From Rhytidiadelphus loreus (taxonomy: Eukaryota > Streptophyta > Bryopsida > Hypnales > Hylocomiaceae), in contig OX344761.1 in assembly GCA_947034895.1 (NCBI GenBank), forward strand, positions 91,277,447 to 91,341,446: DNA of 64,000 nucleotides, written 5' to 3'. A program made the position numbers and the translations under genes. The notes below the pieces were generated by a model. It was given only the letters and a program-made list of their open reading frames with translations. It was not told where the DNA came from and ran no database searches. Numbering within the stretch: the stretch's first letter is position 1; each line of letters begins with the position of its first letter. Positions 16,524 to 54,475 of the stretch are shown in pieces.

Positions 16524-16700
16524 TCAATTGTCTTGCCAACAACCCCTCGGACGCTGCGACGGAGGTCTCCACTTTGAAGACCCACCATCGCCCATCGCAG
16601 ACATCGATGGAGGCCTCCACTTGGATGACCCGCCGTCGCCCATGGCACTCTTCCTCGGAGGCCGCCACTTCGATCCACCACCATCGCCCAAACTTGCCAT
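16524..16700 (-). CDS. GDGGSSKWRPP repeat peptide, three-repeat form (58 aa)
   Basis: A 58-residue protein with no match I can name. Three repeats of a 16-residue unit run G5-R16 (GDGGGSKWRPPR), G21-S32 and G37-S48 (GDGGSSKWRPPS), each followed by a short linker (KSAM, MSAM). The C-terminus is Arg-rich with one Cys and an extra Trp. There is no signal peptide, membrane segment or Asp/Cys cluster, unlike the copies at 29.5, 35.3 and 51.8 kb. The ATG at 16700 has A at -3 and G at +4; a longer frame upstream starts only with TTG. The three repeats use different codons for the same residues, so this frame is selected. All frames happen to be open here, so overlapping frames are shadows. A TATA-like box lies about 270 bp upstream. 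Function unknown; it is probably hydrophilic and disordered. Confidence 0.65.
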   Translation of the reverse strand: MASLGDGGGSKWRPPRKSAMGDGGSSKWRPPSMSAMGDGGSSKWRPPSQRPRGCWQDN

Positions 16701-16967
16701 GCTCTCAATCGGTCCCAACTTCTTGTACCAAAATCTCGGGGCAAATCCCTAAGTACAAAGATTTTGAGATTTTCCACACAATCTCTATATCAATTAAACA
16801 ACAGTTCTAAGATTATTGCAAGTTAGTCTTGCAGATTGAACTACCTCGAGTTTCTCGATCCCTAGCTTCGTGCAGTGGCCGGACGCACTTATCCCTTCTT
16901 CTTCAGTTTGTATTGGAATTGGTCACTCAACCAGAATGATAGAATGATTTGGTTCATTCCAGTGGTG

Positions 16968-16982
16968 GTATTTATATACTCT
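16968..16982 (-). promoter_or_regulatory. TATA-like box for the 16.5-kb peptide gene
   Basis: On the minus strand the sequence reads GAGTATATAAATACC, a strong plant-type TATA box, about 270 bp before the start codon. This implies a 5' leader of roughly 240 nt, similar to the long leaders of the other copies. Confidence 0.5.
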
Positions 16983-17626
16983 AGGTCTCCAATTCCACGT
17001 TGGAACTCGCGTTGTTTTGTTCAAACGCGGAGCTTGCCAGACAAGATAAATCGATGAGACCCAAACGGAGTTTGAATTCGAGTTCCAGTGAAACTTAACT
17101 AGTTGAAGAATATTCTGGTGTGAAAACAAGATGGGAACGCGAAGACGGTTGTCTGCGGACGACCCAAATCGAAGCTTGACATGTCCTCCAGCAGATTGGG
17201 AGGACGGGACTTTCCCAGGAAAAGGAATTGCAATTCAGTACAAGAAATTTGGTCGGATTCCGACGGAGGGGTTGGCTTTGGCCTTCGGGGCGGCTAATTA
17301 GCTGCCGCTGGAAGTTCCGCCATGGGACGCAGAAATTGTTTAGCTATAAGGGTCCCAAAGTTAGCTCGTGCGCCATCGCCAGCTGCAAAGGGCGTTGAAT
17401 AATTTCCTTCGATCAGGAGTTTGCAGGAATTGGCGAAGGGGGGGTACTGGCGTTCCCGGAAGGAGAGAGAGGAGGACTTTGCGGGAAATTGGATGTGATG
17501 AAGCACTCCAGGTAGGAGGCCCAGGCAGAAAGCGCTCGGGCTCTAACGCAGAGGTACATTGTAAAGCAGAGGTAGCAGAGGTACATTCATTCTCATTGCG
17601 ACAGCAATGTACAAGACGTGTACATT

Positions 17627-17850
17627 TCAGGAGGTGGACGCTTCTAGTGACTATTGCATTTCAAGTTCAAAAATTCATAACTAATTTTACAAAGCTCCAA
17701 AAAATATGAAACAACTTGGACTAGATGTCAATTTTATTTTTATTTTGAGGAAAATTTACTAAAAAGAAATATTTCAAGACATCTAACCTCCCAAAATTAA
17801 TTTCCAGCTCTTAAATGGGTGCTTTATAGACTACACTAATTATGAAATTT
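17627..17850 (+). repeat. Dispersed repeat 'GGAGGTGG', uninterrupted copy
   Basis: Landmarks TTTCAGGAGGTGGACGCTT, GCATTTCAAGTTCAAAAATT, CATAACTAATTTTA and AGCTCTTAAATGGGTGCTTTA align with 60446-60650 and with the split copy at 62098-62995. This copy holds neither MITE, so it shows the empty sites (AACTAATT and AAATGGGTGC) for both insertions in the 62-kb copy. Confidence 0.75.
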
Positions 17851-19205
17851 AATATTTTCTTGTTTGTTTGTTTTGGCACTTACGACATTTGGCTGTAGCT
17901 AGAAGTAATAGATTGACCAAGCCTTGGCAATTACTCCAAGGGTGACATCCTTGTCAGTGGTTAGGGCCTTTGTTTCCATTATCAAACCAGATGGTTGTGC
18001 ATGGGCGATGGATATCGGTACGAATTAAACTGCAGACCTCATGGGCCCAACAAGTCCAATTTCAAATTTGATCACCTGGTGGCTAGAGTTTAATGATAAA
18101 TTCCAAGTGTAAATTCTGCCAAGTTGATAACCCCTCAAGAGCAATTGCATCTAAATCAGGATAGGATGAAGAGTTTTTGGGAAGGAATCCATGCAGAGGA
18201 AAATTCCCGAGGAAACATTCTTCACCCGAATGGATTGTGAAAAATTTCAGAGGAATTGTGTGAGATAGAATGTGAAAAATTTCCCAACACACTCCCATAA
18301 AGTACATGATTTTGTTTCGCTTTTTGAGCCAAAAAATCGCAATCCCTAGTGAAATGTGGTTTTCTTCCTACATTTGTTCCGGGAATGTTTCCTACTTCGC
18401 TTTAGCGAATTTGTTAAACTTCCGTGTGAACTGAAGATGGTGTCGGCAGAAGTTTTCATTGTTGCTGAGTTTGGGTCCTTCACGGAATTGTGCTCACGCT
18501 CACAGGCAACTCAATTGTGGGGTCATCAAAAAGCTTTTTCGTTGTCAACTGTCAGCTTCTCAGCTTGTCCTTTGCCATCAACAGTGGTTGAGACTCGGCA
18601 ATTGGTGAGTGAAAGGCACAATTGCCATTACAGCCGTCAACATAATTACTCCGACACAATAGATGGGTATCTTCCTTGCAAGTTAGGTCGCAACTGCACT
18701 AGCCAGGGCTAGACAGTTCTGCAGTAACAGCCTCTGGTCAGTTCCTTGGTAGCGTCAATTTTGTGGTCTCCCGCCGTGTTGTTCATTTGGCGATGGTTTC
18801 TATGATAAAGACACCATCCTATACTATTTTAAACTATATTTTCTAGTTTCTTTTCATAGTTTATTGTAATAAGAAAGATTTGGTGAATTTCCGAAGTCCC
18901 AAATTTACCTGTACTGGTGGCAAAGGCCTGTCAGTGGGAGGTCGTTTTTTTGTGATAGATCGCCAGAAAAATTACACAGGTTCCTTGCTCATCAAGAATG
19001 TTCGATTATTTTTTTCAATTTCTTATTTTCTGTTTCTGTTTTAAATTTGGAGATATAGTCAGAGAGGGACGATGGATTGTGGCGCAAGAATGAAGAAATT
19101 CGATGGCAGTCAACTGAAGAAAGAGACCAGGGCAGTGATGCCGACGATGCCGACGATGCCGCCAAGAAGACTTGAACGTCAAGCTAACGAGATTTGAATA
19201 AACAA
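17851..19205. other. Intergenic DNA of mixed composition
   Basis: A 91-codon ATG-started frame at 18437-18712 (+) has no recognisable domain and is not counted as a gene. No transposon ends found. Confidence 0.3.
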
Positions 19206-19210
19206 GAACT

Positions 19211-19473
19211 ACATCAATCCATTTCTACTTGAGCAAAGCTTGTACGAATCGTGTACGGTATTTCTCACTTGGGCCTAGACTATTTAGAGTTAACTACTGT
19301 ACATCAATCCATTTCTACTTGAGCAAAGCTTATCCGAATCGTGTACGGTATTTCTCTCACTTGGGCCTAGACTATTTAGAGTTAACTACATCAATCCATT
19401 TCTACTTGAGCAAAGCTTGTCCGAATCTTGTACGACATTTCTCTCACTTGGGCCTAGACTATTTAGAGTTAAC
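19211..19473 (+). repeat. Three tandem units of 87-90 bp
   Basis: ACATCAATCCATTTCTACTT begins units at 19211, 19301 and 19388; each ends in CTATTTAGAGTTAAC. Unit 1 differs by small indels that change the reading frame, so a repeated protein is unlikely although an open frame crosses the array. It lies about 190 bp upstream of the small peptide-family locus at 19659 and could be a promoter-side array. Confidence 0.85.
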
Positions 19474-19658
19474 AATTACCAACAGTCTTCAGAGGTTCTT
19501 CACTGATAACAGACTGCCGTGCCCATATTTCGGAGCAGAATTCAGAGGCACTTTTCCAAGAGGTAGACAGTTTACACCAGCGAAGTATAGTAGGAATTTT
19601 CAGCTTCCCAACGATATCATTTCTAATCAATAGGATTAGAACTACATTGCAGAGCAGA

Positions 19659-19715
19659 ATGGGTTCTGAAGGAGACGGAGGGAACTCAAAGTGGAACCCA
19701 CCGCGCATCAGGTGA
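19659..19715 (+). CDS. One-repeat member of the GDGGSSKWRPP family (18 aa) or first exon
   Basis: ATG GGT TCT GAA GGA GAC opens a frame reading MGSEGDGGNSKWNPPRIR before TGA. The first twelve residues match the N-terminus of the 77-residue copies (MGAEGDGGGSKW). Only one repeat is present. The frame ends in ATCAGGTGATT, where CAG/GTGATT is a fair splice donor, so this might be exon 1 of a spliced gene; otherwise it is a truncated remnant. The ATG is preceded by CATTGCAGAGCAGA, resembling GCATTGCAA(T/C)C before the ATG of the 29.5- and 35.3-kb copies. Codons differ from those copies at many third positions while residues are kept. Confidence 0.45.
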   Translation: MGSEGDGGNSKWNPPRIR

Positions 19716-20983
19716 TTCAGAGCAGCCATTCAGTGGCATTTTCTTGACGCAGAAGAAGCTGGTTTTCGAAATTCTCATTTTCTCAATCGACAACATGAAG
19801 CTCTCGGTGCTTTCTGGCATCCACAGCTCCAGCTCGATTGGTATATGAGTTATCATTAGAACTTTGAGCTGATCCCCTGATTGTCAACACGTAGATTGAT
19901 TATGTTCATGAAATTCTCGGAGCTGTTGCTTCATTTCGTAGAAGAATGATCTCTGAGTTGCACCCATTACTGTCTTTACTGGGCACTCAGAATGAGATCG
20001 GTTGTATCATATACCAATTTTTATAGCAAGTAAAGCTGGCAAGAAATGCCTTCATGACGTGCACTCATGCTTGTAATGCCCTGCATCTCGTGTTTTCTAT
20101 GCGTTGGTGACAGCCATGTGATCTAACTTCAGATGTTAGAAGAATTTCTATCCAGGAATCTAGCCAGAGACATTAACTGAGGTGGAGTTGTGATGAAGCT
20201 GTTGTGATTAGAGGTATCTAATTGTGACACCTACCTAACTGCACCCTTAGAAATAGTATAATGAGTTCAAATTGATTTTAAGAAAGTATACCTCCTCAAC
20301 ATCAAGGTAGTTTAAGGATATCTACCAATATAACCTTGAATCCTCATAACATTTGGTTATGATATCTGAATAATGCATTCTCTGGTGCGTTGGAACCCTC
20401 GTTCATTTGCTAACACGTACGTATGTTCAAGATCTGACCATTCTAATAACCACATTCGGCTTAATTATGCCATTCTGATATATCTAAGGATCAATGACGT
20501 GCTTGACAAGACTGATGCCTGTGAGCAACCGAAACATCAGTGGACCCAAGTAACTCATTGACCATGACGATAGGAACTTTCTAGAGCAATTGATATCTTG
20601 AACGATCCAATTTGTTGATTGGCCAAGATGTCGCAACGAAAAAATAATATCTCAGTTCGCGGTAGGAAGACGGACCTGCTTTTCCGGGAGTGGGGACCGG
20701 TTGCATTCTTGACCTGTGAATGCCTTCTACCGAATAATAACTGCCCTAACTTCTTATCCGTGGACTTCCACATCGGAATTTTAAACCAAGATTACGTCGG
20801 ATGACACAGTCGTTGACGACTCAGAGAGAATAAGTAGAAGTTTATTAGTGATTCCCATTTGACTCGAACAAGATTTGACCCCCTGAAATTGAAAAACGCT
20901 GACTCAAGGATTTCAATTGACTAAATTCGAGCAGTCAAGCGAATCGACTCCGTCGCTGCTTTCCCTGATCGAGTGCTTGCATC

Positions 20984-21226
20984 ATGCCGACTGCAAGAGA
21001 AACGCAAACATTCATTAGTAAAAAATCACAAGAATTCAACAAATTCCCACCATTTGACTTACGAATCCAAGATGAAAAAACTCCACAAGTTACTTCAAAG
21101 GTGAGTGGATACGAAGGCTTACTAACTGCGCCTCACGGCACACTTCTATTTGACGGAACAACGTCTCGGTGTCTGCTTCCTCCGAATTTAAAAATTCGAT
21201 TCACTACTACAGGTCGGCAGGTTTAG
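20984..21226 (+). CDS. Hypothetical 80-aa open frame
   Basis: An ATG-started frame of 80 codons ending in TAG lies in a GC-richer island. The product would be basic and hydrophilic, with no signal peptide, repeat or motif that I recognise. It has no paralogue in the window. It could be a chance frame; it is listed because it starts with ATG and the opposite strand is not open across it. Confidence 0.2.
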   Translation: MPTARETQTFISKKSQEFNKFPPFDLRIQDEKTPQVTSKVSGYEGLLTAPHGTLLFDGTTSRCLLPPNLKIRFTTTGRQV

Positions 21227-21475
21227 GATTCCCTGTACTATACTCGAGTTTCCGGAAGGCCATCAGCTGTTTTTAGTCATCTTCACATTCTCCGGCAATT
21301 TTAATCCTAACGCGTGTACGAATGTTGCTGTTCTGCGCTTACTAGCAACATTCCATCGAGCTCCCCTACGAAATCGGGATCGCAGTGGGCTCCGTGCTTA
21401 GGAAATGCTCCCCTGTTTCCTCTCAAAACCCTAAATCGCAAATCTGACCCCGCAAACTTGACCCTTGAACGCCGG

Positions 21476-21690
21476 GACGGTCACCGTGGAAATCATCTGT
21501 TTTGTGACCGTGTGAATTGTTGTCTTAAAAAAATTAAAAAAAACTCATTGGAAGACAAACTACTATAAAAGATCTCCCCTTTTCATCTGACAAAATTTAG
21601 AGAATTAATAGTTGCACTTTTGTCCCACATAGAAAGATTATTTGTCATTCATTGGTCCAAAAATGGCTTGCTATGTTGTTTATGGCTTAA
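21476..21690 (+). repeat. Dispersed repeat 'GTGGAAATCAT', copy 1 of 3
   Basis: The order ACCGTGGAAATCAT, GTGTGAAT, AAAAACTCATTGGAAG, TCTCCCCTTTTCA, AATAGTTGCACTTTTGTCCC, TTTGTCATTCATTGG is repeated at 31252-31480 and 36520-36720, all on the plus strand. No coding frame is shared. Superfamily unknown. Confidence 0.7.
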
Positions 21691-21970: not shown

Positions 21971-22555
21971 CCCGGGGAGATCACTTAGTGTATCTATAAG
22001 TAACCATATGTGTTAAAGTGATTTTTTTCCCCCCTATATACTTTTTAATAAACTATAATTTGAACCTATAATTTTGAGCTTTGTTTAATAATGATTGTAG
22101 GTTTTTATTGCCAAAAATTCTCAATTCAAATAACATGTGAAATGATTTGTAGAATAGGTTGAAAAATGAACTAAAATAGCATGTTTTTCAACTCAAATAT
22201 TTATATAGAACACATTTAAATGACCATTGCATCAATATTCAAGAAAAATGAACTTTAAATAGAAAGTTATTTTCAAGAATATTTTGTTCATTTTTTAGAC
22301 TATTTTTTCGTATATAAAATAGGGGTGTGAAAGTTATTTTCACCTCTACAGTGTAGTTTTTTACTTCAAAAATTTGTAACTAATTATAATTAAAGAATAA
22401 AATTATCAATAATTCAAAACATAAACTTCCAAAGTAGGGAATTATATTGATATTTTTTTTTCCTCCTTTTATTTAAATTTTAGGATATAAGATAGGGGGT
22501 CCAAAATCTTAATGCACATAGGTTCTAAATGGACACTCTAAGTGATCTCCCTGGG
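21971..22555. mobile_element. Non-autonomous DNA transposon, 8-bp target duplication (hAT-like), 585 bp
   Basis: The ends are CCCGGGGAGATCACTTAG and, inverted, CCCAGGGAGATCACTTAG. AATAATAT is duplicated exactly at 21963-21970 and 22556-22563. Eight-base duplications are typical of hAT elements, though other superfamilies make them too. The interior is homologous, in the opposite orientation, to the element at 55613-56175. No transposase is encoded. Confidence 0.85.
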
Positions 22556-29162: not shown

Positions 29163-29502
29163 AGAATTGCACTTGCACCATTCCTCATTCCCGCTCTCAT
29201 TCAGTCATTCATTCAATTTCATCAGTGATCGATCGAATTGATTTCTATTTCGAAGTGTTAAGTTGCATTCTCGTTATCAGCTAAAGATCGATCTCCAGTT
29301 CGATTCGTTGATTCTAAAGGGAAATACTTTGAGTACTCCTGGAAGTGGCAAGTTCAATTAAGTTGTGCTCTGTCTAGAGATCACTCTGATCGTTTTGTCG
29401 TTCGATCCTGCCTCGTTTTCTACGTTGATTCGTACACTTCATCGACAGCAAAGTTCAGTGAGGTCTCTCGATCCGATCCTGTGCTAGCAAGGCATTGCAA
29501 TC

Positions 29503-29736
29503 ATGGGTGCGGAAGGTGATGGAGGTGGTTCGAAATGGAAGCCGTCATCCTACTCTGGGGACTACGAAGACTGCGAAGGCGATGGCGGATCCTCGAGATG
29601 GAGACCACCATCGCACCACGTGGAAGGTGATGGGGGCTCTTCCCGATGGAGACCTCCCTCGCACAGCTGCGTCTGCGACGACGACTGTGAAGGAGACGGA
29701 GGATCCTCCAAGTGGAGACCCGGAAAGGGCTTCTGA
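29503..29736 (+). CDS. GDGGSSKWRPP repeat peptide, four-repeat Cys form (77 aa)
   Basis: A 77-residue protein with four repeats: EGDGGGSKWKPSS (4-16), EGDGGSSRWRPPS (25-37 and 41-53) and EGDGGSSKWRPGKGF (63-77, to the end). Each repeat has one Trp between basic residues, followed by Pro. The linkers are acidic/aromatic (SGDYEDC) and, before the last repeat, C-V-C-D-D-D-C (56-62), a possible metal or disulfide site. No signal peptide or membrane segment is visible, so it is probably cytosolic or nuclear and disordered. The ATG is the first in frame and is kept in the paralogues. Repeats encode the same residues with different codons, which supports this frame over the overlapping +1 frame. The CDS differs from the 35.3-kb copy by two bases. 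Function unknown: a hydrophilin-like protector or a repeat precursor peptide are both only possibilities. Confidence 0.75.
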   Translation: MGAEGDGGGSKWKPSSYSGDYEDCEGDGGSSRWRPPSHHVEGDGGSSRWRPPSHSCVCDDDCEGDGGSSKWRPGKGF

Positions 29737-30190
29737 AACAATCCGAATTGAGTACTTACTTGGAGATCAAGTGCCAATTGAGATTCAACAATTTTGTACA
29801 TACAGCGATCAATACAAACAACGAGCAATGGTAGTCACCCAGAGTGACCAGTTGCGCCAGCTAGATATGCGGAGGCGATGGTTCAGAATCTCGGGAGAAT
29901 ATATTTTTCTTAGAGGCTTCCTCCTTTCAGCAGATCTGCAAATTTTCTTGGTGTCAAATTAGTTGACTCCATCGTTCCGACCTTCGGAAGAATAGATCAT
30001 TCACATAACCATTCTCAGGGGCCCCGTTTAATTTGTAGAGCAGGGGACCTGGGGTAGATTAGTTGCCATTCTTTGGTCTGAGCCAATTCCTTGTCAACTG
30101 GCGATGTAAAAAAGACCACAAATTTAAAGAGAATTTTTTTATGCGTCATCTTCTGACCAAACACGATTGTCTGTCTTGAATGCGTTCGTA
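29737..30190 (+). promoter_or_regulatory. Conserved 3' flank of the peptide gene
   Basis: This stretch is collinear with the 3' flanks at 34795-35233 (inverted) and 52020-52475. Shared blocks are TGAGTACTTA, CAGAGTGACCAGTTGCGC, GTGTCAAATTAGTT, ATAGATCATTCA and GGCGATGTAAAAAA(A)GACC. TGTAA resembles the polyadenylation signal common in green algae, so this is probably a long 3' untranslated region. Confidence 0.55.
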
Positions 30191-31251
30191 TTGAGACTAC
30201 TGTCAATGCTCGTCCCCGGGGTCATGAACGTGCATTTAGCTCACAATGCAGAGTATGGCATCTGGTAGCAGCCAACTCAAGCCCCTGCATAATTGAGCTC
30301 TTGTAGAGTTCTACTTATTAGCAGAATTTCACATCAATGTACGTGCAACCCAGATATGCAACGAAATTGATGTTTCAAGTGATGCCTTGAGTGGTGGCAA
30401 CATTCTTTGTCTTTAAAATGTATGCATAATACGGGCGAGACAATTTTTCCAATTTCACACCGACCTGCACAAATGAGAATAATGGAAAGCTGTCAAGTAA
30501 ATATTCCCATCTCAGTCGGTCACAAACCAGTGTGTCGATCGACAGCTTTTCGTTACAAGAACTTGGATTGATTATCAAGGGTGATACTTTGCAAATCATG
30601 TGAATTATAAGTTTTCTGTCTGTATGTGGAAACAAAATACTCGATCAGAAGAGATTTCTGCTGACGTTTATGGTGAAGCTGGAAGCAAGACAGGTAGGTG
30701 GATGTGCCTGCATGTGCTTGAAAAGTCACAAGATCAAATTGTTTAGCTGTACAGTACAAAGAATTATAATGTTCTTGGAGCTTCAGAAGTTCGGCAGTTT
30801 GTGTCCCAGCTGCGGTTGACGTACTCTGCCCTTTCCAGTTTCCATGTCGGCAAAAAAAATTAAATCAAATTAAGTATATACATTATTTTTTATTTTTTTC
30901 ATTTCAGATAAGTATTTGAAGAACAGGAATAAACCCTTGACGACCCTAAACTTTGTTTTCCTTCTCAGTTTTTAAAGGGATGGCTATCCTAACTTGTGAA
31001 TTCGAAGACCTATTCAAATAAGTGAACAACGTACAGGTCTCTCACGCACATGACCAAGTTCCGTTGAAATCTATCTTCTGTCTACTGAACTTTTTTTGAG
31101 AACTAGCTGGAGACGTACTCGCTAAGTTTACTGCAGACAGAAGCTCTATGATTTGTATCCAGTCGATTGGTCTCTTCTCTCCAACGTGTAAACAGCTCGC
31201 AGAGTCGCCCTTTTGTGGTGATGTACTTCCTCTGTTTAACCGTTAAAGGAC
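30191..31251. other. Intergenic DNA between convergent peptide genes
   Basis: No gene or transposon ends recognised; short frames only. Confidence 0.3.
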
Positions 31252-31480
31252 TGACTGGTGACCGTGGAAATCATCCATTTTGGTATTGTGTGAATCATTG
31301 GTTTAAAAAAATCCAAAAGTATTCATTGGAAGTCAATGACTACTATGGAAGACCTTCCCTTTTCACATAAAATTTGAAGGATGAATAGTTGCACTTCTGA
31401 CTTTTGTCCCACATAGAAGGATTCTTTGTCATTCATCGGCGAAAAATGGCCATAGCGACGTTTGTGGGTTAATTCTGAAA
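31252..31480 (+). repeat. Dispersed repeat 'GTGGAAATCAT', copy 2 of 3
   Basis: Collinear with 21476-21690 and 36520-36720: GACCGTGGAAATCATCCA, GTGTGAATCATTGGTTTAAA, GATGAATAGTTGCACTT, TTTGTCATTCAT. Flanking AT-rich text also resembles that beyond the 21-kb copy. Confidence 0.7.
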
Positions 31481-32089
31481 CGCTTGACTTATGATCACAG
31501 AATTGGAAGTCAAATTCCATCACCGTGTATGCTCCCATTTAGCAACTACATGTGAACAAGTATTTTTATTTTTATTTTTAGAGATGAAATTACATGCTAG
31601 TCTTCTTTACTTTACAAAAAAAAATTAGATTTCTTTTTTTCTTTTGGAATTTTTTTATTTTTCTTAGAAATTTTGAAGAATAATTGAAGAAAAATCATAT
31701 CAAATAGAAAATTCTCTCAAAAAATTTGAGAATTTCACCATATGTGTATATCATTGTGAAGAACATCATAGTAATTATGAACATAATTTCTATATCATTC
31801 TATAATTAGAATTTAGTAGACATTGGAAACACACCCAAAGTTCAAATTGCAATAAAATATTCAATTTTAGGAATTTTTTCAAAAGTTCAAATTAATTAAA
31901 GTAGAAACTAGATTAATGAACTTCATTTCAATCATTAGTTAGTTTAAACTCAAAAAATATCATTTTTATGGAGAATTTTTAGGTTTAGAGCAAGGAGGAA
32001 CAACTTTTCAACATATGCTAAAATAGCATATTTTGTGATTCATTTTTTTTTTACCAAATTCTCATGAATATACATGAAGACAAACATTA

Positions 32090-32623
32090 AAGTAAACATG
32101 CCTATGATATACAAAATGAGTGGTTTGTTCTGTTGCCATTAGCAAAAAAAATCAGACTTTTTCCTATACAAAGACAATGTGAGAAATGAAGGAAGCAATT
32201 GAAATTTTTATTTTTTGGACAAAGTATGAATTTGTTATAAATTCTTGAAGTGGATTGCCCAATTGGTCCAAAAGAGTCTCTAGACTACCCCAAGTCACCA
32301 AAACATGTTTCCATGACCACCTATAGTAGTCGCAACATTTTTTAACATGGCTACAAGATTTCCTAACATGGCCATGAGTCCATGACATGATTGAAGGTAT
32401 AAAAAAATAACTTTTCATGACAAATTTACACTAGAAAGGTGTAAGTGTCCTATCATAGTCACTAATAACTCCATGACCATAGATCCTAAAGCATTAATTA
32501 TACCACAAATCAACCTAATGTAGTCCTAACCCCATTTATTAGAAAAATTTGTCATGGATTGTTATTAATGTTATAAAACTCTAATGGGAAGTTCTTTAGG
32601 TGCCTATCATTGGTGGTTTACCT
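32090..32623. mobile_element. TA-flanked MITE, degenerate copy (534 bp)
   Basis: It is homologous to 54689-55214: GACAAAGTATGAATTT, TAGACTACCCCAA, CATGGCTACAAGAT and TTTACACTA are shared in order. The ends AAGTAAACATGCCTATGAT and, inverted, AAGGTAAACCACCAATGATA are mutated versions of the better-kept ends at 54.7 kb. TA flanks both sides. Confidence 0.65.
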
Positions 32624-32902
32624 TAGCAAGATGCAAAGTCAATTGCAAGCTCTTCATAACCCACCATGAGAGGTCAATAAGAAAAAATTGGATGAAAAAA
32701 TGCTTCCGATTTCTGTCAAACTCAATCTAATTGGACAGAAATTAGTAAGCCCAGTTGCCGCACAACAGATTGAAGCTCTGTACAGTACTTAAGCTTAATT
32801 ACTTACACACATTCATTGCCATTGACAGAAAAGCTTAATTTTGTTTTGTTTGCTGCACAAGTACGGCAACACCGGCCTTCTGACTGTCCTGTTTCTGGAG
32901 GG

Positions 32903-32994
32903 TTTTTTTCTTTTTTTCTTTTGACACAAATGAAACGAAATTTCATAGCAAAGAGAGAAACAAAACCCGCCAGCCACAGGTGACCTGGCGGGGA
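32903..32994 (-). mobile_element. Short retroposon with 9-bp target duplication
   Basis: Read on the minus strand it runs CCGCCAGGTCACCTGTGGCT, then CTTTGCTATGAAATTTCGTT, TCATTTGTGTCAAAAG and an A-rich tail. TCTGGAGGG flanks it at 32894-32902 and 32995-33003. The 5' end is truncated, as expected for target-primed reverse transcription. Confidence 0.75.
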
Positions 32995-33015
32995 TCTGGA
33001 GGGCCTTTCGAGATC

Positions 33016-33129
33016 ATGGCAGCAGAGGTTGAAGCAACAAGCAAGCTTGAGAGAATAAGTTTTGCAGACTTCCTCCACTTGGTGGATGATGAAATTTCGC
33101 AGGCAATGGAGAATGCCAGCATGAAATGA
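33016..33129 (+). CDS. Small open frame, 37 aa, unidentified
   Basis: ATG-started frame MAAEVEATSKLERISFADF... rich in Glu/Asp with spaced Leu/Ile/Phe, consistent with an amphipathic helix. It begins 13 bp after the retroposon target duplication. It could be a fragment of a captured or broken gene, or chance. Confidence 0.2.
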   Translation: MAAEVEATSKLERISFADFLHLVDDEISQAMENASMK

Positions 33130-34489
33130 ATGAAGTAAATCAAAGAATGCAGAAAAAGGAACTTTTGTCTACTATTTAGCAACCAATATGATTACTTTAG
33201 TTGGCATGGACACTTAGAGCTTCATGATTTTTGTGCATGGTTTTGGATTAGTTCAATTCATGTAGCCAAGCATTGTTTTTTCTTAAAACGATAGTTGTCA
33301 CGTGGTCTCAATCATTGTGTTGACATAAATTTGGAAGATCTTGCATGCTTGGACAATCATTCCAAAACATGTTAGACAAAGCAATATATCACTTAAAAAA
33401 ATTGTTGCATATAGGGATGAGAAGAAAAGAAAACTTACAAAAATAAAGATTTTAAATCTAGATTATTAATATGTGTCAAGTCATGAGCAACATTTCATGA
33501 CTTTATAAGATAACTCTCTTATATTACTATACGTGGTGGTTTGGGTTTGCAAACAATATTTCCAAAAAACAATGCAAGGATTTTTGGAAAATTATCTTTT
33601 CAAATAATTCTTTTTAATGGAAAAAATGAATCTTTCTATTTTCAAGCATCCCATGAATTGTCTTAAGTTTGCCAACTTTAGACTATTGGCCTTCGAGGGG
33701 CTTGGAGTGCTTGGATAGGTCAGGGGTGAGTTACTCTAGGATTAGTCATGGTGGCCAACCCATCTGTGTCTACCCAATGTAATGAAATTTGGAATTTAGT
33801 TTCAAAACCAACATACCTTTCAAAATTGAAAGAAGAAGATTCAGTAGCCTTTACAAATTTGAAGCTAAAGGAAAGTGGTTGGTGAGAATTTCATATGAGA
33901 GGAAATGAACTGAGAGATTTTGATAAGGAGAGGATGCAACTGGTTCCCTGTTGGGAAAAACAAACCCGTCTCCTTCTACAAATTAGCGGGGCAGCTCCGA
34001 AAACTTCTCGGACGCTGCTGCGAACCCCCTTGCCGGAGACCAAGTACTGGACCAAACAACAGCAATGTCAACAACATTTGCTCCTGAGGCAGATTGGGTC
34101 AAATCTAAGGTCTAAACACTGTTTTTAAGGTTCAGTCTACACCTAGTAGTTTTTCTTTACATGTTTGATTGACCGGCAAAGAACTCCAGATAAATTTCAG
34201 AATTAAAATTTATTTTCATTGCAAACTGATAAAATCTAGATTTTACACTGATACCAACTTTACAGATCTTGTCTTGCAGACTTGCAGTCCGTTTTCCTGC
34301 CCTGTGATCGAGGCCCTGGCTGCCTTCCGAAACTGTGTCATCATATCATCATGCACGTGATTGCATGATTGTCTTGAAATGAATGTGTTTATATCATCCT
34401 GACGAGAATATCTCTAGATGATGTGCACAATATATTATCACCTGCATATAAAATCTAAGAATTCTATCATGTCACGATTCGGCAGGCGA
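33130..34489. other. Intergenic DNA
   Basis: AT-rich, with a 77-codon ATG frame at 33895-34128 (+) that is basic and lacks any recognisable motif. Not counted as a gene. Confidence 0.3.
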
Positions 34490-35233
34490 TACACTAACTT
34501 GTCTGTACGTGTCTGCCGGTCAGTCCCTCCCCAGTCCAGTTGAACCAAAGCTGTGAATCGTCAAGACAATGCAAGTGCACCGTGCCTGCCAAGCTAGCTG
34601 ATTTGATTTACTGATACCGACACTTCAACCGTACCTATCAACAGTGCCGCACAGTGGCCAAGTTCACCATACTCAGACTAGCTTCATACAGTGCAAGTGC
34701 AAAATAATAATATATGGACCCGGACACGTACTCGATCATGGCATGACGATCTCGTCGTTTGATACATGTACAAGATAGACACGTTTGAATGTTTGATCAG
34801 AAGATGATGCATCAGATAAATTTGTCTTAACTTTGTGGTCTTTTTTTACATCGCCAACAAGGAATTGGCTCAGACCAAAGAATGGCAGCTACTCTACCCC
34901 AGCCCCCTGCTCTACAAAACGGTCGGGGTCTCAAAGGATGGTTGTATGAATGATCTACGATTCCGAATGTCGGAATGATAGGGTGAACTAATTTGACACA
35001 AATTTTTTTTGCAGATCTGCTGAAAGGATGAAGTCTCTGAGAAAAATATACTCTCTCTCGAGATTCTGAACCATCACCTCCGCATATCTAGCTGGCGCAA
35101 CTGGTCACTCTGGGTATAGTGACTACCATTGCTCGATCGGTGTTTGTGTTGATTGGTGTATTGTATGTACAAAATTGTTGATCGAATCGATCTCGGCACT
35201 TGATCTCCAAGTAAGTACTCAATTCGGATTGTT
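34490..35233 (-). promoter_or_regulatory. Conserved 3' flank of the 35.3-kb peptide gene
   Basis: Read on the minus strand it matches the flank at 52020-52650 almost to its end, including GGCGATGTAAAAAAAGACCA, CAAATTTATCT(G/T)ATGCA, GAAGTGTCGGTA and GCTTGGCA..CACGGT. The first 450 bp also match 29737-30190. The homology far beyond the probable poly(A) region shows that the copies arose by duplication of genomic segments. Confidence 0.6.
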
Positions 35234-35467
35234 TCAGAAGCCCTTTCCGGGTCTCCACTTGGAGGATCCTCCGTCTCCTTCACAGTCGTCGTCGCAGACG
35301 CAGCTGTGCGAGGGAGGTCTCCATCGGGAAGAGCCCCCATCACCTTCCACGTGGTGCGATGGTGGTCTCCATCTCGAGGATCCGCCATCGCCTTCGCAGT
35401 CTTCGTAGTCCCCAGAGTAGAATGACGGCTTCCATTTCGAGCCACCTCCATCACCTTCCGCACCCAT
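35234..35467 (-). CDS. GDGGSSKWRPP repeat peptide, four-repeat Cys form (77 aa), near-identical copy
   Basis: Same length and architecture as the gene at 29503-29736. Across 234 bp only two bases differ: one silent (Gly9, GGT/GGC) and one replacing Ser16 with Phe. All four repeats, the C-V-C-D-D-D-C cluster and the WRPGKGF end are kept. About 40 bp after the stop are identical too, whereas the 5' leader is much more diverged, with gaps. That pattern fits strong selection or recent gene conversion restricted to the CDS and its 3' edge. The gene faces the 29.5-kb copy across about 5.5 kb. A CATATAAGG TATA box and the TACCGAC module lie upstream. No signal peptide. Function unknown. Confidence 0.75.
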   Translation of the reverse strand: MGAEGDGGGSKWKPSFYSGDYEDCEGDGGSSRWRPPSHHVEGDGGSSRWRPPSHSCVCDDDCEGDGGSSKWRPGKGF

Positions 35468-35812
35468 GTTGCAATGCGTTGTTGGCACAGGAAGAACCCA
35501 AGTGCTGAACTTTGCTGTCAAGTCTTACTACGAATTTATGTACTCACTTTCTTAGATAGAAGCTGGGACGATCTCTGAACCGTGGATCAAAACTTGCACT
35601 GCCCTTTTGCAAGATCGAATTAATACTCTAGCTAAGCCGGGACGCAAGCTAGCTTCTCCCTTTCGAACCAATTAACGAACCAGTGACTGGAGATTGATCT
35701 TTCAATTGGCTGGTAACTCGAATCGAATGCGAGGTAGAGGGGTCGACTGATGAATGCATGGAAGAGCTGTAATGCGCTGTGATCGAATGAGAGAGTGGAG
35801 GCCAGTGCGGGT

Positions 35813-43477: not shown

Positions 43478-43537
43478 ATTCCTTTTTTCTTGCAATGAAA
43501 TCTCGTTTCATTTGTGTCAAAAAAATAAAAAATAAAA
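43478..43537 (+). mobile_element. Very short retroposon insertion
   Basis: Only the 3' tail is present: TTGCAATGAAATCTCGTTTC, ATTTGTGTCAAAAAAA and A-rich text. AAATGTTGTTCCATT flanks it at 43463-43477 and 43538-43552. Confidence 0.85.
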
Positions 43538-43552
43538 AAATGTTGTTCCATT

Positions 43553-43681
43553 GCCGTCGTTTAGGTCTGTGCCTCTGGTCTTGTTTGTCTGTTCGGGTCC
43601 CCTGCCAGGCCACTTGTGGCTGGCAGGTTTGTATTTCATTGCAATGAAATTCCGTTTCATTTGTTAAAAAGAAATTCAAAA
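43553..43681 (+). mobile_element. Second retroposon at the same target
   Basis: It runs from GCCGTCG through CTGCCAGGCCACTTGTGGCT and TTGCAATGAAATTCCGTTTC to an A-rich end. The flank AAATGTTGTTC(C/A)ATT appears at 43538-43552 and again at 43682-43696. Two insertions therefore used the same target word. Confidence 0.8.
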
Positions 43682-43799
43682 AAATGTTGTTCAATTAATA
43701 TGTGAAGACATTGCCAAATAATGGTACAGACAACCGCAAAGTCCTTCATATCCTCAACTAATCCCGTGTTGGAATTTTATGTATTTATTTGACACATCA

Positions 43800-45218: not shown

Positions 45219-45286
45219 TGTGGCTGGCAGGTTTGTTTCTTCTCTTGCAATGAAATTCCGTTTCATTTGTTTCAAAAAAACAAACA
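45219..45286 (+). mobile_element. Short retroposon with 14-bp target duplication
   Basis: AACTATCATGTCGC occurs at 45205-45218 and 45287-45300. The insert is TGTGGCTGGCAGGTTTGTTT, CTTGCAATGAAATTCCGTTT and CATTTGTTTC followed by an A-rich (AAAC)n end. Confidence 0.9.
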
Positions 45287-45452
45287 AACTATCATGTCGC
45301 CATTTCAGGCAGTTGTCATACATTTACCTCGGCAAAGACTTGGTAGTTTCCCAAAGAATCATGTCTGGCAATCTGTTCTTTTGCAATCTTACGGTAATGA
45401 GCAGATATTAAATGGGAGATTCTAGATCTAGGAAGGCTTTCACTGTTGTTCC

Positions 45453-46388
45453 AACCCAGAAAGTCCCAAGGCCTTGTTACCATCAAAATGCACTCAAAAC
45501 TACCATTTTGATTGCAAAGTGCAAATTGTTATAGAAATTCTCTTTTGGGGCATGTGTAACTACTAGAGGATCTTGCATTAGACTAATATAAGAATGTGTG
45601 GAAAATATTTCAGAAATTTTGATTGTGTGAATTGCAAGATATTTGTGTTTAAAGTGACCCCCCCGGTTTTTTGCACCTTCTTGACTAAATTTAAAGGCTT
45701 TGAATCTTCTTAGCTTAAATTTTTTGCACTATTGACATTGAATTTATAATTTTTTTATGTTTGAAGAATTGAGTTTAAAGTCTAAGAATTTAAAAAAAAA
45801 AAAAAAAAAAATTGATTTTCTTTCTTAAGAAAATTGTTGAATTGAAGTAGATATGAGATTGAAGGAAAAATTAAATCATTAATAAGTTTAAGATGGAATT
45901 GAAATACAATTATCTCAACAATGAGATTGTTCTAGTAAGCCAACTAAACCTAGATGAACTTTTTTTGAAAAATTGTGAAAACTACATTCAAAAATGAATA
46001 TTGTAAGTTATTTTTTCATGAAGATGTTTAGGTTGCTTGATAAACACGTTTGTCCATAACTTTCTCATCACTAGTCCAAATACAATGAATCAAATCTTTT
46101 CATGTAAACAAAAATATTTTCTTTGAGAACAAAATTTGGAAAATTTTATTTTGACTTTTTGTGATTTTTTTGGTATTGCGGTGTTGCCCAACAAATCCTA
46201 TTTTGGACTTAGGGTGGTATAACTTTTGTCCCCAAGCACTAACTGAAAAAAAAATTACATTCCCTTGAAGCTAATGTATTTTTCATTTTTCCTATCTTTT
46301 AAAAAGAATTAAGGAATTCCAACAAAAATTGAGACTGTAGGAAATCCATTTTGTCTTTCAAGGAGACAATGGGACTTTAAGGGGTTAA
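45453..46388. mobile_element. TTAA-type element, about 0.94 kb
   Basis: The left end AACCCAGAAAGTCCCAAGGCC pairs with the right end read inverted, TTAACCCCTTAAAGTCCCAT. The whole interior is homologous to 47562-48475 in direct orientation. No gene inside; the left TTAA appears mutated. Confidence 0.55.
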
Positions 46389-47561: not shown

Positions 47562-48475
47562 TTAACTCCTAAGCCTTCAAGGCCTTTTAATCATCAAAAT
47601 GCATTGAAAACTGCCATTCTATTGCAAAGAGCAAAAACTTTACAAATTTATATTCGTGCCTTATTAACATAGGATCTTGCACTAAATTAGTATGTGAATG
47701 TGTGGAAGAAATTTTAGAAACTTTGACCACATATATTGCAAGATATCTATGTTTAAAGTGAAGAAAATGTTTTTTTGTGCACCTTCTACAACTATATTAT
47801 TTGACTTTGAATCTTCTTGATTTAAAATTTTGAACTACACAATTTGATTTAAAAAAATTTACGTTGAAGAATTGAATTTACGTCCTAGAACTTTAAAAAA
47901 AAATACACTTGATTTTCATTCTTTGTAAAATTGTTATAATATAAGTAGGAATAAGAATTAGGAAAAAATAAATTGTTAATACTTCTAAAGAGGAATTGAA
48001 ACACACCAATTCCAATGGTGACATTATTCTAACAAGCATAATAAACCTTGTGGATATTTATGATTTTGAAAATTTTGAAAATTGAGTTAAAAAATGAATC
48101 TAATGTGTTATGTTTTCAAGAAGATTCTATGATTGCCTACAAAACAAGAATCATAACTTTCACATCATCAATCCAAATGGAACGAATAAAAGATTTCCAT
48201 GTAGACAATTATATAATCTTTAAGAAACTAATTTTTAATAGTTTTATTTCAAATTTTGTAGTTTTTTGTATTGCCAGGCTTAGTTATTTTGAGGTTACTA
48301 TAGCATATCTATTTTTTCCGGTCACCAATTGAAATAAAAATTATATTTCCATAAAGCTAATGTGATTTTTTGTCTTAAGAAAAAGTTTCAAAAAATTACA
48401 ATGAAAATTGAGGCCAGAGGAGCCTATCCAAAATCCATTTTGTCCCTTGTAGGGACAATGGGATTTGCAATGAGA
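47562..48475 (+). mobile_element. TTAA-type element, second copy
   Basis: It begins TTAACTCCTAAGCCTTCAAG. It aligns with 45453-46388 (ATCAAAATGCA(C/T)T, ATTGCAAGATAT, TGTTTAAAGTGA, ATCCATTTTGTC, GACAATGGGA). The right end is degraded. Confidence 0.55.
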
Positions 48476-49836: not shown

Positions 49837-50426
49837 TATGTGCATTTATGGACCCCTTTAAAATGCATCATCATACATTCTTTAATTCCTAAAGGTTTAA
49901 ATTTTTGGAATGGCCTCTTTACAATTTATTGTAGGTTCCCATAATGTCAAATTTACTATAACTTTTTGAAACATTTTTAAAAGTTTAAAGAATGTACTAG
50001 CTTTTTAAAAATGAAAATTTTATTTCATTTGTTGAATGGGAGAAAATGTTATGCTGCCTTAAGCATAGAATATTCGAGCTAGGGCAACAAAAAATGAAGA
50101 GGCAAAAAAGTTGAAATAAAAAAATTTAAGTTACTTTTTTTCTTATAGAATATGATTATTGTATCACCCAAAAAGTTTTGATTCATTCCATTTGGATTAG
50201 TGATGTAAAAATTAGAAAGAGTTTTGTTTTTTAGGCAATCATGATTTTTTTTTTAAAACAATGCATATGATTCAATTATGAACTCAATTTTTATAATTTT
50301 AAAATACAAAAATGTCCACTAGGATGCCCACATGATATATATTACTTGCCAAGAAGATTTCACCATTAGGATTGACAATTTTTGATTATGTTTTAGAAAT
50401 ATTGATGATTTAATTCAATTATGTTC

Positions 50427-50535
50427 ACTACAAACAAAAGGGGTGTTTTAAGTGTGTTTTTAAGTATAGTTTTAGAGATAAGATATTAAGTAATAACCTT
50501 TATGTAGATTTTTAGTAAAAAATTACTAGAAATAC
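50427..50535 (+). mobile_element. Half of a CACTA-ended MITE
   Basis: CACTACAAACAAAAGGGGTG and the following about 100 bp match the left arm of the complete hairpin MITE at 62720-62971. The right arm is absent; a minus-strand retroposon tail begins just beyond, so the copy may have been broken by that insertion. Confidence 0.65.
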
Positions 50536-50544
50536 ATGTATTTT

Positions 50545-50615
50545 TTTTTGTTTTTTTTGAAACAAATGAAACCGGGATTTCATTGTAAAGGCACAAATAC
50601 AACACCACTAGCCAC
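50545..50615 (-). mobile_element. Retroposon tail copy
   Basis: TTTGAAACAAATGAAACCGG followed by ATTTCATTGTAAAGGC is the inverse of the family tail; target duplication not resolved. Confidence 0.6.
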
Positions 50616-50639
50616 ATTACTTTTTAGTTTTAAAAAAAA

Positions 50640-50720
50640 TTTAAACAAATGAAACTGGATTTCATTGCAAAAAAGTCACATAACAAACCTGCCAGCCACA
50701 AGTGGCTTGGCAGAGGAGGG
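50640..50720 (-). mobile_element. Retroposon copy with CCAGCCACAAGTGG segment
   Basis: On the minus strand it reads CTGCCAAGCCACTTGTGGCT, GGCAGGTTTG and TTGCAATGAAATCCAGTTTC, the normal order of the family. Confidence 0.65.
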
Positions 50721-51351
50721 CACACTTTTTGGTTGGTTTTCAGCAAACTCAAAAAAGATCTTTGGCATTTAAACGAGCTGACCTTGGACTGCCATATTAA
50801 TTATAACGTCCTGCCAGGTACAGTTTTTTTCTTGTAGCAGCTGACCACGGCAAGTAAGGTAAGGTAAATGCCAAGACTTTCTTGGACGCAGTCGGGGCTT
50901 CCCGGTCCAGTCTTTAATTTGTGCTCCATATCAAAGCCTGGCGCGTGGCTACCTGGTCCACTTAAAGGGCCATCGAATTGTAGTTACACCAACGCCCTGA
51001 GTTTACTTGGAAAACTTATGTAAGAGCGTTGAAAAAAAATTCCTTTTTGGTCTTCAGATGGCAGTGAGTGCAGGTTCGTCGGGTCTGTCCTTTGGACAAA
51101 GACTACGGCATCGACTCCTACTCCGAGTTTCCGAATCCGAGTCTTCCAACCAGATTCACACTGCACAGTACCGTTAGGATTAGGATTTGGTTGGAGTGGA
51201 CAGAGCCTGTTGTTCCTTGTTCCTTACTCTTTTTTGCAATTGAGTTTTCAGTTTGAGCGGGTCAAAAGAAAAATTTTAAAAAATATTTCGGGCAATAGGC
51301 ACACTCTTCCCGGCGCATCACGAACGCTCCATTCAACGCGGTTAGGGTGCT

Positions 51352-51384
51352 ACCGACTTTGGTCAGTGCAATTTTGAACCAGCC
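51352..51384 (+). promoter_or_regulatory. Conserved upstream module of peptide genes
   Basis: TACCGACTTTGGTCAGTGCA, then TTGAACCAGCC and AGTCAAATTTT. Matches the modules at 29047-29071 and 35884-35914. Confidence 0.55.
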
Positions 51385-51497
51385 AGTCAAATTTTCGAAC
51401 TGTAGCAGGTTCAAGCCTTTGGCACCACGCTCCCGATTGAGTCCCGACCTGACTTAGTGACTGCGGGAACATGGATCCCATTCCATCTGGCCCGGCT

Positions 51498-51506
51498 CAT
51501 ATAGGG
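51498..51506 (+). promoter_or_regulatory. TATA box of the 51.8-kb peptide gene
   Basis: CATATAGGG, aligned with CATATAAGG of the other two copies and followed by CATTCCTCATTCCC as at 29.2 kb. Confidence 0.5.
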
Positions 51507-51833
51507 CTGGGATCGGAGACGCAGTGCCCATCATTCCTCATTCCCAACTTACAGAGCTTCTGATCGATCTGAAGTCAGCAGTCCTTGAATCGATCTCGAT
51601 TGACGTCAGTCGTGTTATCAGTCAAACTTAAGGTAGATGCAGACTTTTAATTCAGTATTATATTCAGGTCTTGATAGGATTTAGTCAGTGCAAGTTGAGC
51701 TCCCTGCAGAGCGAGATTCAGCCTGCAATCGTGATAATTCCAATCTTTGCCCCTGTCTGCTAATTTCTGTGCATATTTATCCGTAGACTTTGACAGAGTT
51801 TAGTGAGGTCTGCATTCTCAGCAAAGTCTTGCC

Positions 51834-52019
51834 ATGAGTGCTGAAGGTGATGGTGGTGGTTCGAAGTGGAAACCGTCTTCCCACGCTAGGGACTACGAAA
51901 TCTGGGAAGGGGATGGCGAATCTTCACGATGGAGGCCGCCCTCGTACTGCTCCGGCTGCGACGACGACTGTGAAGGGGACGGAGGATCCTCCAAATGGAG
52001 ACCCGGAAAGGGCTTCTGA
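51834..52019 (+). CDS. GDGGSSKWRPP repeat peptide, three-repeat Cys form (61 aa)
   Basis: A 61-residue paralogue of the 77-residue genes lacking exactly one 16-codon repeat. Repeats lie at 4-16 (EGDGGGSKWKPSS), 25-37 (EGDGESSRWRPPS) and 47-61 (ending WRPGKGF). The Cys cluster is C-S-G-C-D-D-D-C (39-46), a variant of C-V-C-D-D-D-C. Compared with the 29.5-kb gene, about a dozen shared repeat codons changed silently while the repeat cores have one replacement (Gly to Glu at 29); the linkers changed freely. This is strong evidence that the peptide repeats are selected. The ATG aligns with the others. The TACCGAC module and TATA box lie upstream, and a long homologous 3' flank follows. No signal peptide. 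Function unknown. Confidence 0.75.
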   Translation: MSAEGDGGGSKWKPSSHARDYEIWEGDGESSRWRPPSYCSGCDDDCEGDGGSSKWRPGKGF

Positions 52020-52650
52020 AATAATCCGACTTGAGTACTTATATATGTTGATCGAGATCAAGTGCCGTGATTCGATCCACAATTTTTGCATGTACATACA
52101 ACGATCATTCACATTCATGTACATACCGAGCAGTGGTCGTCACCCAGAGTCGAGTGACCAGTTGCGCAAGCTAGAAATTAATGCGGAGGCGATCATGTTA
52201 CAGAACTCGAGAGTGAGTATTATCTCCGAGGCTTCGATCATCCTTACGGAAAATCTGCATATTTTTCTGACCGTGTCAAATTAGTTGACCCCATTGTTTC
52301 GACATTTCGAAATAATAGATCATTCATACAACCATTCTTTGGGACCCCATTTTGTAAATCAAGGGGCCTGGCTTAGAGTTGTTGCCACTCTTGGTGATGT
52401 AAAAAAAGACCAAAAAGTTAAGACAAATTTATCTTATGCACCATCTGCTTATCAAGGTGTCTATCTTGTTCATGTCAAATGATGGGATTGTCTGGCCACA
52501 TGCGTCTACCCAGCAATGTCGATTTGTTGAAGTGTCGGTACTAGTAAAATAAACCGTGCTTGGCACGGTACGATGTACCTCCATTGTCTTGTCAATTCAC
52601 TACTTTAGTTCAACTCGACTGTGGTGACAGACTGGCAGGGGACACTTGTA
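52020..52650 (+). promoter_or_regulatory. Conserved 3' flank of the 51.8-kb peptide gene
   Basis: Collinear with 34490-35233 inverted. It includes GGTGATGTAAAAAAAGACCA (52393-52412), GAAGTGTCGGTA (52530-52541) and GCTTGGCACGGT. The TGTAA motif is a candidate polyadenylation signal. Confidence 0.55.
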
Positions 52651-54343
52651 GCAGCGGCGACCTTAGTCGCCACTGTTGGAGACTCCGTCGAGTGAGTGCC
52701 CCCGGCTCCACCTTTCTGTCCAATAAACGAAGGACATCCACTCCACCTGCTCAATGTTAAACATTTATTTGTTTTTACATAATCACAAGACTTTTGACCA
52801 ATAACAGAGGCCACCCTCATATTTCAGGTGTTATGCGCCTAACAGTGCTCCACTACATGCCTAAATTCTACTCGCTCCGATCTGCTATGTAGGGTTTAAG
52901 TGCTATATCATCCTACCTGTTGCCTTTCATTTCTCCTGGACGGATCATTCCGAGATTCTTTTGGCATCATTGCCAAGGTCACCACCACATACTACCCAAC
53001 TAACAGACATGTATAGACAATTGAATTGTGACCTTAAATTGGGCATTGATTTCTTATATTGTATGTAATGTCAATTTCGTTGAATTGACAAAATTCCACA
53101 AGCCAAAAATTATGACACTTATCTTTGCAAAGGACTAATTTCACGCTGCAAACTGGGACAAGTATAGATATTGGTTTCTGCTCGCATGGTCCAAAGTAAT
53201 GAGATTATCACCAGATTAAGGAAATTGAAGTTATGTGGAGGTGATAATGTAAATAATGTACACATCCACTGGAGATCTTTATTGACATTTCTTTTAGTTT
53301 GGTATGAAGATGATTGAAGGTCAATTTCTAGTTGAATTGGTAGTATTCCAAAACTTGTCAATTGGCACATTTCAAAATGCACATTCTGGAACATAAATCC
53401 ATACCTATTTTTTTATTTAGACCTTTACTTCCGTATATGTCACAATTTTTGGCGCCAAAATCTTGCCAACTTAATGAATTTGACCTTAGTGGCTGCCTTA
53501 GTGAATTTATTGGAAGAAGTATGGTACAGAATCTAAGGCTTTAGAATGCTAGTTCAGAGCAATTTGTATCCTAGTATCAGCAAACACAATCATTTTCAAG
53601 AGATGCAATCACTTGATAAAGACCCAGTTTCTGAAGGCAACCAGGGTTCAGGGCAGGACAGAAGAACTGACTGCAAGACAACACTATTTGTTAAGTTGGT
53701 ACCAGTATAATATCTAGAATTTATCAGTTTGCGCCGAAAATAAATTGTAAGGCCGAAGTCTATCTGGAGTTCTTTGTCGACTCAACCCAACAGTTGTGGA
53801 AGCAACAAAATGTTTTCTTTCCACTTAAATTTGATCAGTATTAATATTTTACCTCGACTGCTTGGCAATCGGTCTGACGGTCTCCAATTCTAGCTAGAAA
53901 ACCAATTTGGCGATGGTCAGGAGCAAATGTTCGTCGCGTTGCTGTTTAGTTGTTCTGTCCGGTACTTCGTCTTCTGCAAGGGGGTTCACAGCAGGATTTT
54001 TTTCCCCTAGTTTTTTCTACCTGACGCTCTATCTGATTGCTATTTACATGTTGATTTGATTTGATTTGAAACACAAGGGGCAAGCCCATTGCTTAAGCAG
54101 GGAAGTACATCACCATGCCACAAACTGCCACTCTGCGAGTTGTTTACACGTTGGAGACAAGAGACGAACTGGTCGAGTGGATACAACTGAAGTCCTAGAG
54201 CTTCAGCTAGTGCAGGAATGAGTCTCCAGCTAATAGTCAGAAAAAGTTCAGTAGAGTAGTAGACAGAAGAAAGAAACTGGTCATGATCGACTGTGAAAGC
54301 TCGAGAGATCGAGACCTGCTATTTTCAGAATAGGTCTTGGAAT
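52651..54343. other. Intergenic DNA
   Basis: A possible degenerate element lies at 53067-53487, where GTCAATTTCGTTGAATTGAC at the left resembles the inverse of GCCAACTTAATGAATTTGAC at the right. (TTGAT)n occurs near 54053-54069. No gene recognised. Confidence 0.3.
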
Positions 54344-54475
54344 TCATGAGCTAGGACATCCCCAGAGGAGGAGGGCCGGGTTCCACTTCGAACCACCTCC
54401 ATCACGTTCCGCACCCATTGCAATGCCAGTTGCTAGCGCAGGAGGAACGTCAAGTGCTGTTAATTTTCAAACCAC
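54344..54475 (-). pseudogene. Remnant of a GDGGSSKWRPP peptide gene
   Basis: ATG at 54418 opens MGAERDGGGSKWNPALLLWG, stopping after 24 codons at 54344. The first fourteen codons match the 77-residue genes (MGAEGDGGGSKWKP), with Glu-Arg in place of Glu-Gly. After Pro14 the DNA is still alignable (CTACTCTGGGGA against CTCCTCTGGGGA), but an indel has shifted the frame and the other repeats are gone. The 5' side also matches the 35.3-kb leader (CAGCACTTG, TTCCTCCTG, GCATTGCA before ATG). It is therefore a broken, truncated copy. Confidence 0.7.

Follow-up and report, generated by a model that had tools for sequence, protein, structure and literature searches.

A 64,000-nucleotide stretch of the moss Rhytidiadelphus loreus (contig OX344761.1, positions 91,277,447 to 91,341,446; hereafter the window) harbors a family of short open reading frames (ORFs), here called the WRPP family, which are very probably real genes under selection. 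Their products are strings of a tryptophan-centered repeat that may act as a docking motif, and selection, copy number and distant relatives converge on this one motif. Short repeat proteins that lack a domain are easily overlooked in gene annotation. The window contains seven WRPP loci, comprising four intact short ORFs of 58-77 residues and three remnants. A first-pass annotation, made from the sequence alone, had described six loci encoding or once encoding proteins of this size; these were all recovered where it had placed them, and a seventh, weaker locus (S5, at 5.3 kb) lies beyond the range that it gave.

16524-16700, minus strand: S16, ORF of 58 residues counted from the ATG at 16700, three repeats with a 48-nt period
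29503-29736, plus strand: E1L, intact ORF of 77 residues, four repeats
35234-35467, minus strand: E1R, intact ORF of 77 residues, four repeats; inverted duplicate of E1L with one amino-acid difference
51834-52019, plus strand: E2L, ORF of 61 residues, three repeats; 48 nt fewer, in frame, than E1
19659-19715, plus strand: S19, remnant or one-repeat ORF, 18 residues
54344-54418, minus strand: E2R, remnant with one repeat, 24-residue ORF
5212-5310, minus strand: S5, degraded remnant, one repeat with three mismatches, 32-residue ORF

Repeat core and selection on the ORFs

The repeats are not due to chance. The pattern GDG[GE][SGN]S[KR]W[KRN]P matches 15 times in the window and never in 100 first-order shuffles, and a Met followed by 2-6 residues and then the core (up to three mismatches) recurs eight times at the seven loci, one of these matches being an inner Met of S16, again with none in 100 shuffles. 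In each of the four intact proteins the first repeat starts at residue 5, and the tryptophan is flanked by basic residues ([KR]-W-[KR]) in 14 of their 14 repeats, as the first-pass annotation had reported for each repeat. S16 and E2L each carry one additional Trp outside the repeats. Isoelectric points (pI) among the window proteins span 4.7 to 10.9, the upper value belonging to S16, a diverged, basic copy.

Between E1L and E1R, the ORF has 2 differences in 234 positions and lacks indels, whereas the flanks have diverged more: 15 of 56 positions, with 2 indels, on the upstream side and 53 of 419, with 9 indels, on the downstream side. The third copy, E2L, is nonetheless a better witness for selection than this pair. 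Measured against E2L, the ratio of nonsynonymous to synonymous substitution rates (dN/dS) is 0.228 for E1L and 0.220 for E1R; synonymous changes account for half of the differences, 12 of 24 for E1L and 13 of 26 for E1R, where about a fifth would be expected (p 0.002 and 0.001), and 13 of 24 differences fall at third codon positions (p 0.03). E1L and E2L differ at 24 of 186 positions within the ORF versus 88 of 390 downstream (p 0.007). The sole ORF indel separating E1 from E2L is 48 nt, that is, one repeat; 14 of 16 downstream indels relative to E2L (E1L) and 10 of 12 (E1R) are not multiples of three, and the stop codon is common to all three copies. Residue changes between E1L and E2L affect 1 of 30 core positions versus 10 of 31 spacer positions (p 0.006), and codon variation in the cores lies mainly at the wobble position.

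A long ORF that overlaps E1L in another frame (29462-29959, with counterparts) was also considered and was rejected as coding, because substitutions follow the WRPP frame and most of the indels downstream break the frame; this segment had no Pfam match above the cut-off.

Relatives in other sequence collections

The first-pass annotation held that the family has no recognizable relatives, which proved incorrect: 34 distinct relatives were gathered at E up to 10 by a single-sequence query, a five-sequence profile and a 22-sequence profile. The single-sequence query recovered P0001 (E 2.6e-6) and, far more weakly, P0002 (E 0.18); the five-sequence profile recovered 19 proteins, among them P0003-P0006 at 1.4e-8 to 5.9e-6 although the profile did not contain them; and the 22-sequence profile recovered 30, of which 15 were new. 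For proteins that already belonged to a query profile, high E-values follow from the construction of the search. The least secure relatives, P0031-P0034 (E 0.17 to 1.4 with the 22-sequence profile) and P0018 (0.37 with the five-sequence profile), were judged by their motif by eye. Both profile searches scored only the approximately 8,000 candidates richest in shared words, so that absence of relatives from any group proves little. The earlier interpretation was otherwise supported in its picture of a coding family whose products are hydrophilic and disorder-like.

The relatives share a D-G-G-[SG]-S-x-W-[RK]-P-P core, while their spacers are unrelated. Among 100 cores extracted from the window proteins and relatives together, D occupies position 2 in 100, G position 3 in 99, S position 6 in 100, W position 8 in 88 and P position 10 in 88. 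These figures are partly built in, because the extraction pattern itself restricts D, G, S and W/Y/I; near-identical sequences were each counted, and the pattern missed P0014 entirely and passed over some units in other proteins. A core lies within about six residues of the start in 16 of the 34 relatives, some of which are perhaps fragments.

Three types of relative can be distinguished: compact, window-like proteins; proteins of 121-132 residues; and proteins carrying as many as five VPDGGSSxWRPP units. The compact relatives P0001-P0004 and P0029-P0031 resemble the window proteins in length (44-61 residues), in having 2-3 repeats and in the position of the first core (residue 5 in six of seven), but differ in their KWKPP, KWNPP, RWNPP or KWRR variants and their more basic spacers. 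Four of the 34 relatives carry organism names, all from Sphagnum (S. fallax, S. magellanicum with two, and S. tenellum); they sit on contigs of 18.7-26.1 Mb, which is chromosome size, and belong to the other two types. The Sphagnum hypothetical proteins CY35_07G103200 (P0015) and BDL97_07G095400 (P0010) likewise contain three cores (in P0015, GDGGSSNYKPP, GDGKGSPWNPP and GDGGGSKIKPG), but unlike the window proteins they are 121 and 128 residues long, with a long N-terminal part and Y or I in place of Trp in two of three cores. The hypothetical protein CY35_06G128100 (P0021) and P0023 from S. tenellum have five tandem DGGSSxWRPP-type units; their units, however, begin with VPDGG and recur with a period of 20-22 residues, and the proteins have hydrophobic spacers and a length of 176 residues. 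Common descent of the Sphagnum and compact proteins is likely, though short of proof: P0010 and P0015 had weak E-values before inclusion in a profile, and P0021 and P0023 entered strongly only through bridging sequences.

Beyond these proteins, the prokaryote and viral collections yielded 38 and 27 pattern-matching stretches, with one confirmed in each (L001 and L002). Both were judged chance matches, L001 because it overlaps a 47-residue ORF with a single GDGGSSRW, and L002 because it lies across an 877-residue ORF of the other strand. A DNA query with 29477-30163 found no match in the plasmid collection.

Known families, structure and literature

The first-pass statement that the proteins lack a known domain holds for those tested: neither the four window proteins nor eight relatives had a Pfam match above cut-off (the best value, for E2L, was E 0.18 with 12.1 bits, where the cut-off is 27), and seven proteins searched against NCBIfam had none. 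E1L matched no PDB sequence; a PDB search with profile A5 gave eleven matches at E up to 10 (best 0.068), a number of which are, to judge by their names, fused or tagged constructs. The linker repeat of EPYC1-type Rubisco-binding proteins has the motif [DN]W[RK]xx[LIVA], which is found in none of the four window proteins. The AlphaFold2 model of E1L (20 sequences) has no secondary structure, with a predicted local distance difference test score (pLDDT) of 53.7 and a predicted template modeling score (pTM) of 0.12. The window protein is probably disordered on this model, whose low confidence is consistent with disorder but could also stem from thin alignments.

No RNA family reached its gathering score across the window, and none appeared at E up to 1 in 29400-30300. 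A trans-acting small interfering RNA precursor was considered and rejected: one target string was unmatched, and another had only a poor match, with five mismatches, at 20706. Searches of the open-licence literature with the motif strings, with the Sphagnum locus names (some in guessed alternative forms) and by topic found no paper on the WRPP family. The translated short ORFs of the moss Physcomitrella encode proteins of similar size (40-61 residues; PMC11055055); no sequence likeness to these is claimed.

A proposed multivalent docking motif and its alternatives

The interpretation that we favor, at slightly less than an even chance of being correct, is that these are small disordered proteins in which a repeated Trp docking motif is offered to a single partner inside the cell. 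Each protein would be a string of the linear motif D-G-G-[SG]-S-[KR]-W-[KR]-P-P, beginning about four residues past the initiator Met, with spacers free to drift between motifs. The Trp, with the basic and proline residues around it, would fit a single conserved surface of a cytosolic or nuclear partner, and motif number (1-5) may set avidity. The ORFs, the selection on them and the recurrence of the motif in other proteins with unrelated spacers are shown by the sequences. Docking behavior is suggested because the motif is conserved, and not spacer, length or charge; avidity is suggested because motif copy number varies. A broader claim, that a land-plant microprotein family built on a repeated Trp-centered motif marks a conserved intracellular receptor domain that reads and counts the copies, is tentative and rather doubtful. 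A conserved partner would mean a new interaction system in mosses and possibly in other plants; if the partner is not conserved, there is still a family held in the searched databases only as hypothetical or unnamed proteins.

Several observations weigh against this interpretation. The 98% identical stretch of E1L and E1R continues about 50 nt beyond the stop codon, and their identity alone could therefore be due to gene conversion. For the E1R-E2L pair, divergence in the two outer downstream bins (0.125 in the first, 0.132 in the last) is about as low as in the ORF (0.140), with 0.304 in the middle bin; since two of three bins are conserved like the ORF, plain divergence gives no clean contrast for this pair. 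Among the relatives, P0002, P0004, P0005 and P0018 were absent from the third search although they were part of its profile; the Sphagnum proteins P0010 and P0015 had E-values of 4.2e-3 and 4.6e-2 before profile entry; and P0021 and P0023 were reached strongly only through the bridging P0007 (3.3e-4), P0008 and P0013. The motif could also have arisen by convergence. Some members deviate from the motif, with Y or I for W or RR for PP, and the very low-confidence model of the VPDGG-type P0021 (pLDDT 39.4, 12 sequences), a protein with hydrophobic spacers, shows short strands.

Each of the hydrophilin, cut-peptide and Argonaute-hook alternatives failed at least one test. It is possible, though unlikely, that the proteins are hydrophilin-like stress protectants, as the first-pass annotation had suggested, in which bulk hydrophilicity and glycine content would act and the repeat would have no specific partner. 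Hydrophilins are defined by more than 6% Gly, a grand average of hydropathy (GRAVY) below -1, mean hydrophilicity above 1 and induction by osmotic stress (PMC4190154). The window proteins resemble them in glycine content (19-22% in all four; above 6% in 34 of 34 relatives) and GRAVY (-1.29 to -1.38 in all four); the disorder-like AlphaFold2 model and the restriction of organism-named relatives to mosses also fit. However, one of the three numeric criteria fails: mean hydrophilicity, on Hopp-Woods values, is 0.39-0.57 in the four window proteins and exceeds 1 in none of the 34 relatives. GRAVY falls below -1 in just 7 of the relatives, and a bulk role leaves unexplained both the conserved Trp and the contrast between conserved cores and drifting spacers. 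A precursor cut into several W-containing signal peptides, also proposed in the first pass, is improbable. Near-identical tandem units with drifting spacers would suit such a precursor, as would the dibasic pair found somewhere in 31 of 34 relatives and the KR or RR in the spacers of some compact ones (P0001, P0002, P0003, P0029). Yet dibasic pairs are lacking in E1L, E1R and E2L, S16 has a single one (RK), the first repeat of the window proteins starts as early as residue 5, and their N-termini (M-G-A-E-G-D-G-G and similar) show, by eye, no hydrophobic stretch.

It is quite unlikely that these ORFs serve as regulatory upstream ORFs or as the first exons of longer, spliced genes. The remnants do retain the N-terminal repeat, and P0001, P0002, P0006, P0029 and P0033 come from contigs of 2-4 kb, but the shared stop codon of E1L, E1R and E2L, with mostly out-of-frame indels beyond it, and the annotation of the named Sphagnum relatives as whole proteins argue otherwise; the scan for a downstream coding part, a thin test, covered a few open segments. 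Argonaute-hook (WG/GW) proteins have Trp adjoining Gly, and an Argonaute-hook or other nucleic-acid-linked Trp-repeat protein might likewise space its Trp within a G/S/K-rich, probably disordered chain; binding to RNA or DNA was the third role suggested in the first pass. This is nevertheless very improbable for the window proteins, none of which contains a WG or GW dipeptide; 17 of 34 relatives have one, many being VPDGG-type repeats with Gly at the variable residue 7. The least probable of these readings has a mobile element carry the ORFs, either as passengers or as its own genes, with the E1 and E2 arms as its terminal inverted repeats. Both E1 (29477-35492) and E2 (51829-54443) have inward-facing WRPP ends and share inner pieces, but a search for exact target-site duplications of 6-8 nt gave nothing at E2 and, at E1, just the palindromic TTGCAA that belongs to the arms themselves. 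Upstream of the ATG, in our reading, likeness declines gradually and has no sharp end. The Pfam test of this reading covered two segments, both in E1: the inter-arm segment 32806-33168 was unmatched, and the left-arm segment 29462-29959, as above, had nothing above cut-off. Membership in a known transposon protein, which the first-pass annotation had named as a finding that would undo its proposal, gained no support: the WRPP proteins had no Pfam match above cut-off, and target-site duplications were lacking.

Duplication and other features of the window

The multiplication of the WRPP family is best explained by local duplication, both direct and inverted. The two arms of the E1 duplication are as follows.

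29477-30163, plus strand: left arm, contains E1L, 88% identical to the right arm
34790-35492, minus strand: right arm, contains E1R

From the right arm on, pieces reaching as far as about 34015 are similar to pieces within 51905-53994, and E2L with the remnant E2R repeats the tail-to-tail arrangement of the E1 pair in the opposite overall direction. Judging by how the matching pieces follow one another, E2L most plausibly corresponds to E1R, and E2R to E1L. About 1.8 kb separates the remnant at 19659 from the repeat at 21479, a spacing that parallels that of E1L and 31257 when read from coordinates. Directly upstream of this remnant (S19), an 87-nt unit occurs in three head-to-tail copies (19207-19473).

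GCATTGCA stands upstream of the ATG region at four of the seven loci, S5 among them, and CATTGCA at a fifth; neither string precedes the ATG region of E2L or S16. TATA-like strings, each a consensus match only, occur at two loci; at the other five, a simple pattern search of the 200 nt upstream gave no match.

35534-35540, minus strand: CATAAAT, 73 nt upstream of the E1R ATG
51774-51780, plus strand: TATTTAT, 60 nt upstream of the E2L ATG

Other repeats are scattered through the window. A Tc1/mariner-type transposase-like remnant lies at 55388-55576 on the plus strand (Pfam DDE_3, E 0.00029, 21.1 bits, below the cut-off of 28.6), neighbored by an inverted pair, 22042-22551 and 55617-56125, that is 83% identical. 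Direct repeats of about 0.9 kb, 69% identical, occupy 45467-46377 and 47578-48466. At 59420-60420, a 182-nt unit forms a tandem array (59840-60364, 2.9 copies), and 59420-59842 is 91% like 60006-60420 in inverted orientation. Several copies are also present of a short dispersed repeat, about 50-100 nt long and resembling KFRFIC in its translated frames, which is perhaps a small mobile element.

About 32903, 36055, 43490-43684, 45219-45288, 50543-50717, 57453-57547, 60855-60909 and 61443-61536, both strands: KFRFIC-type dispersed repeat

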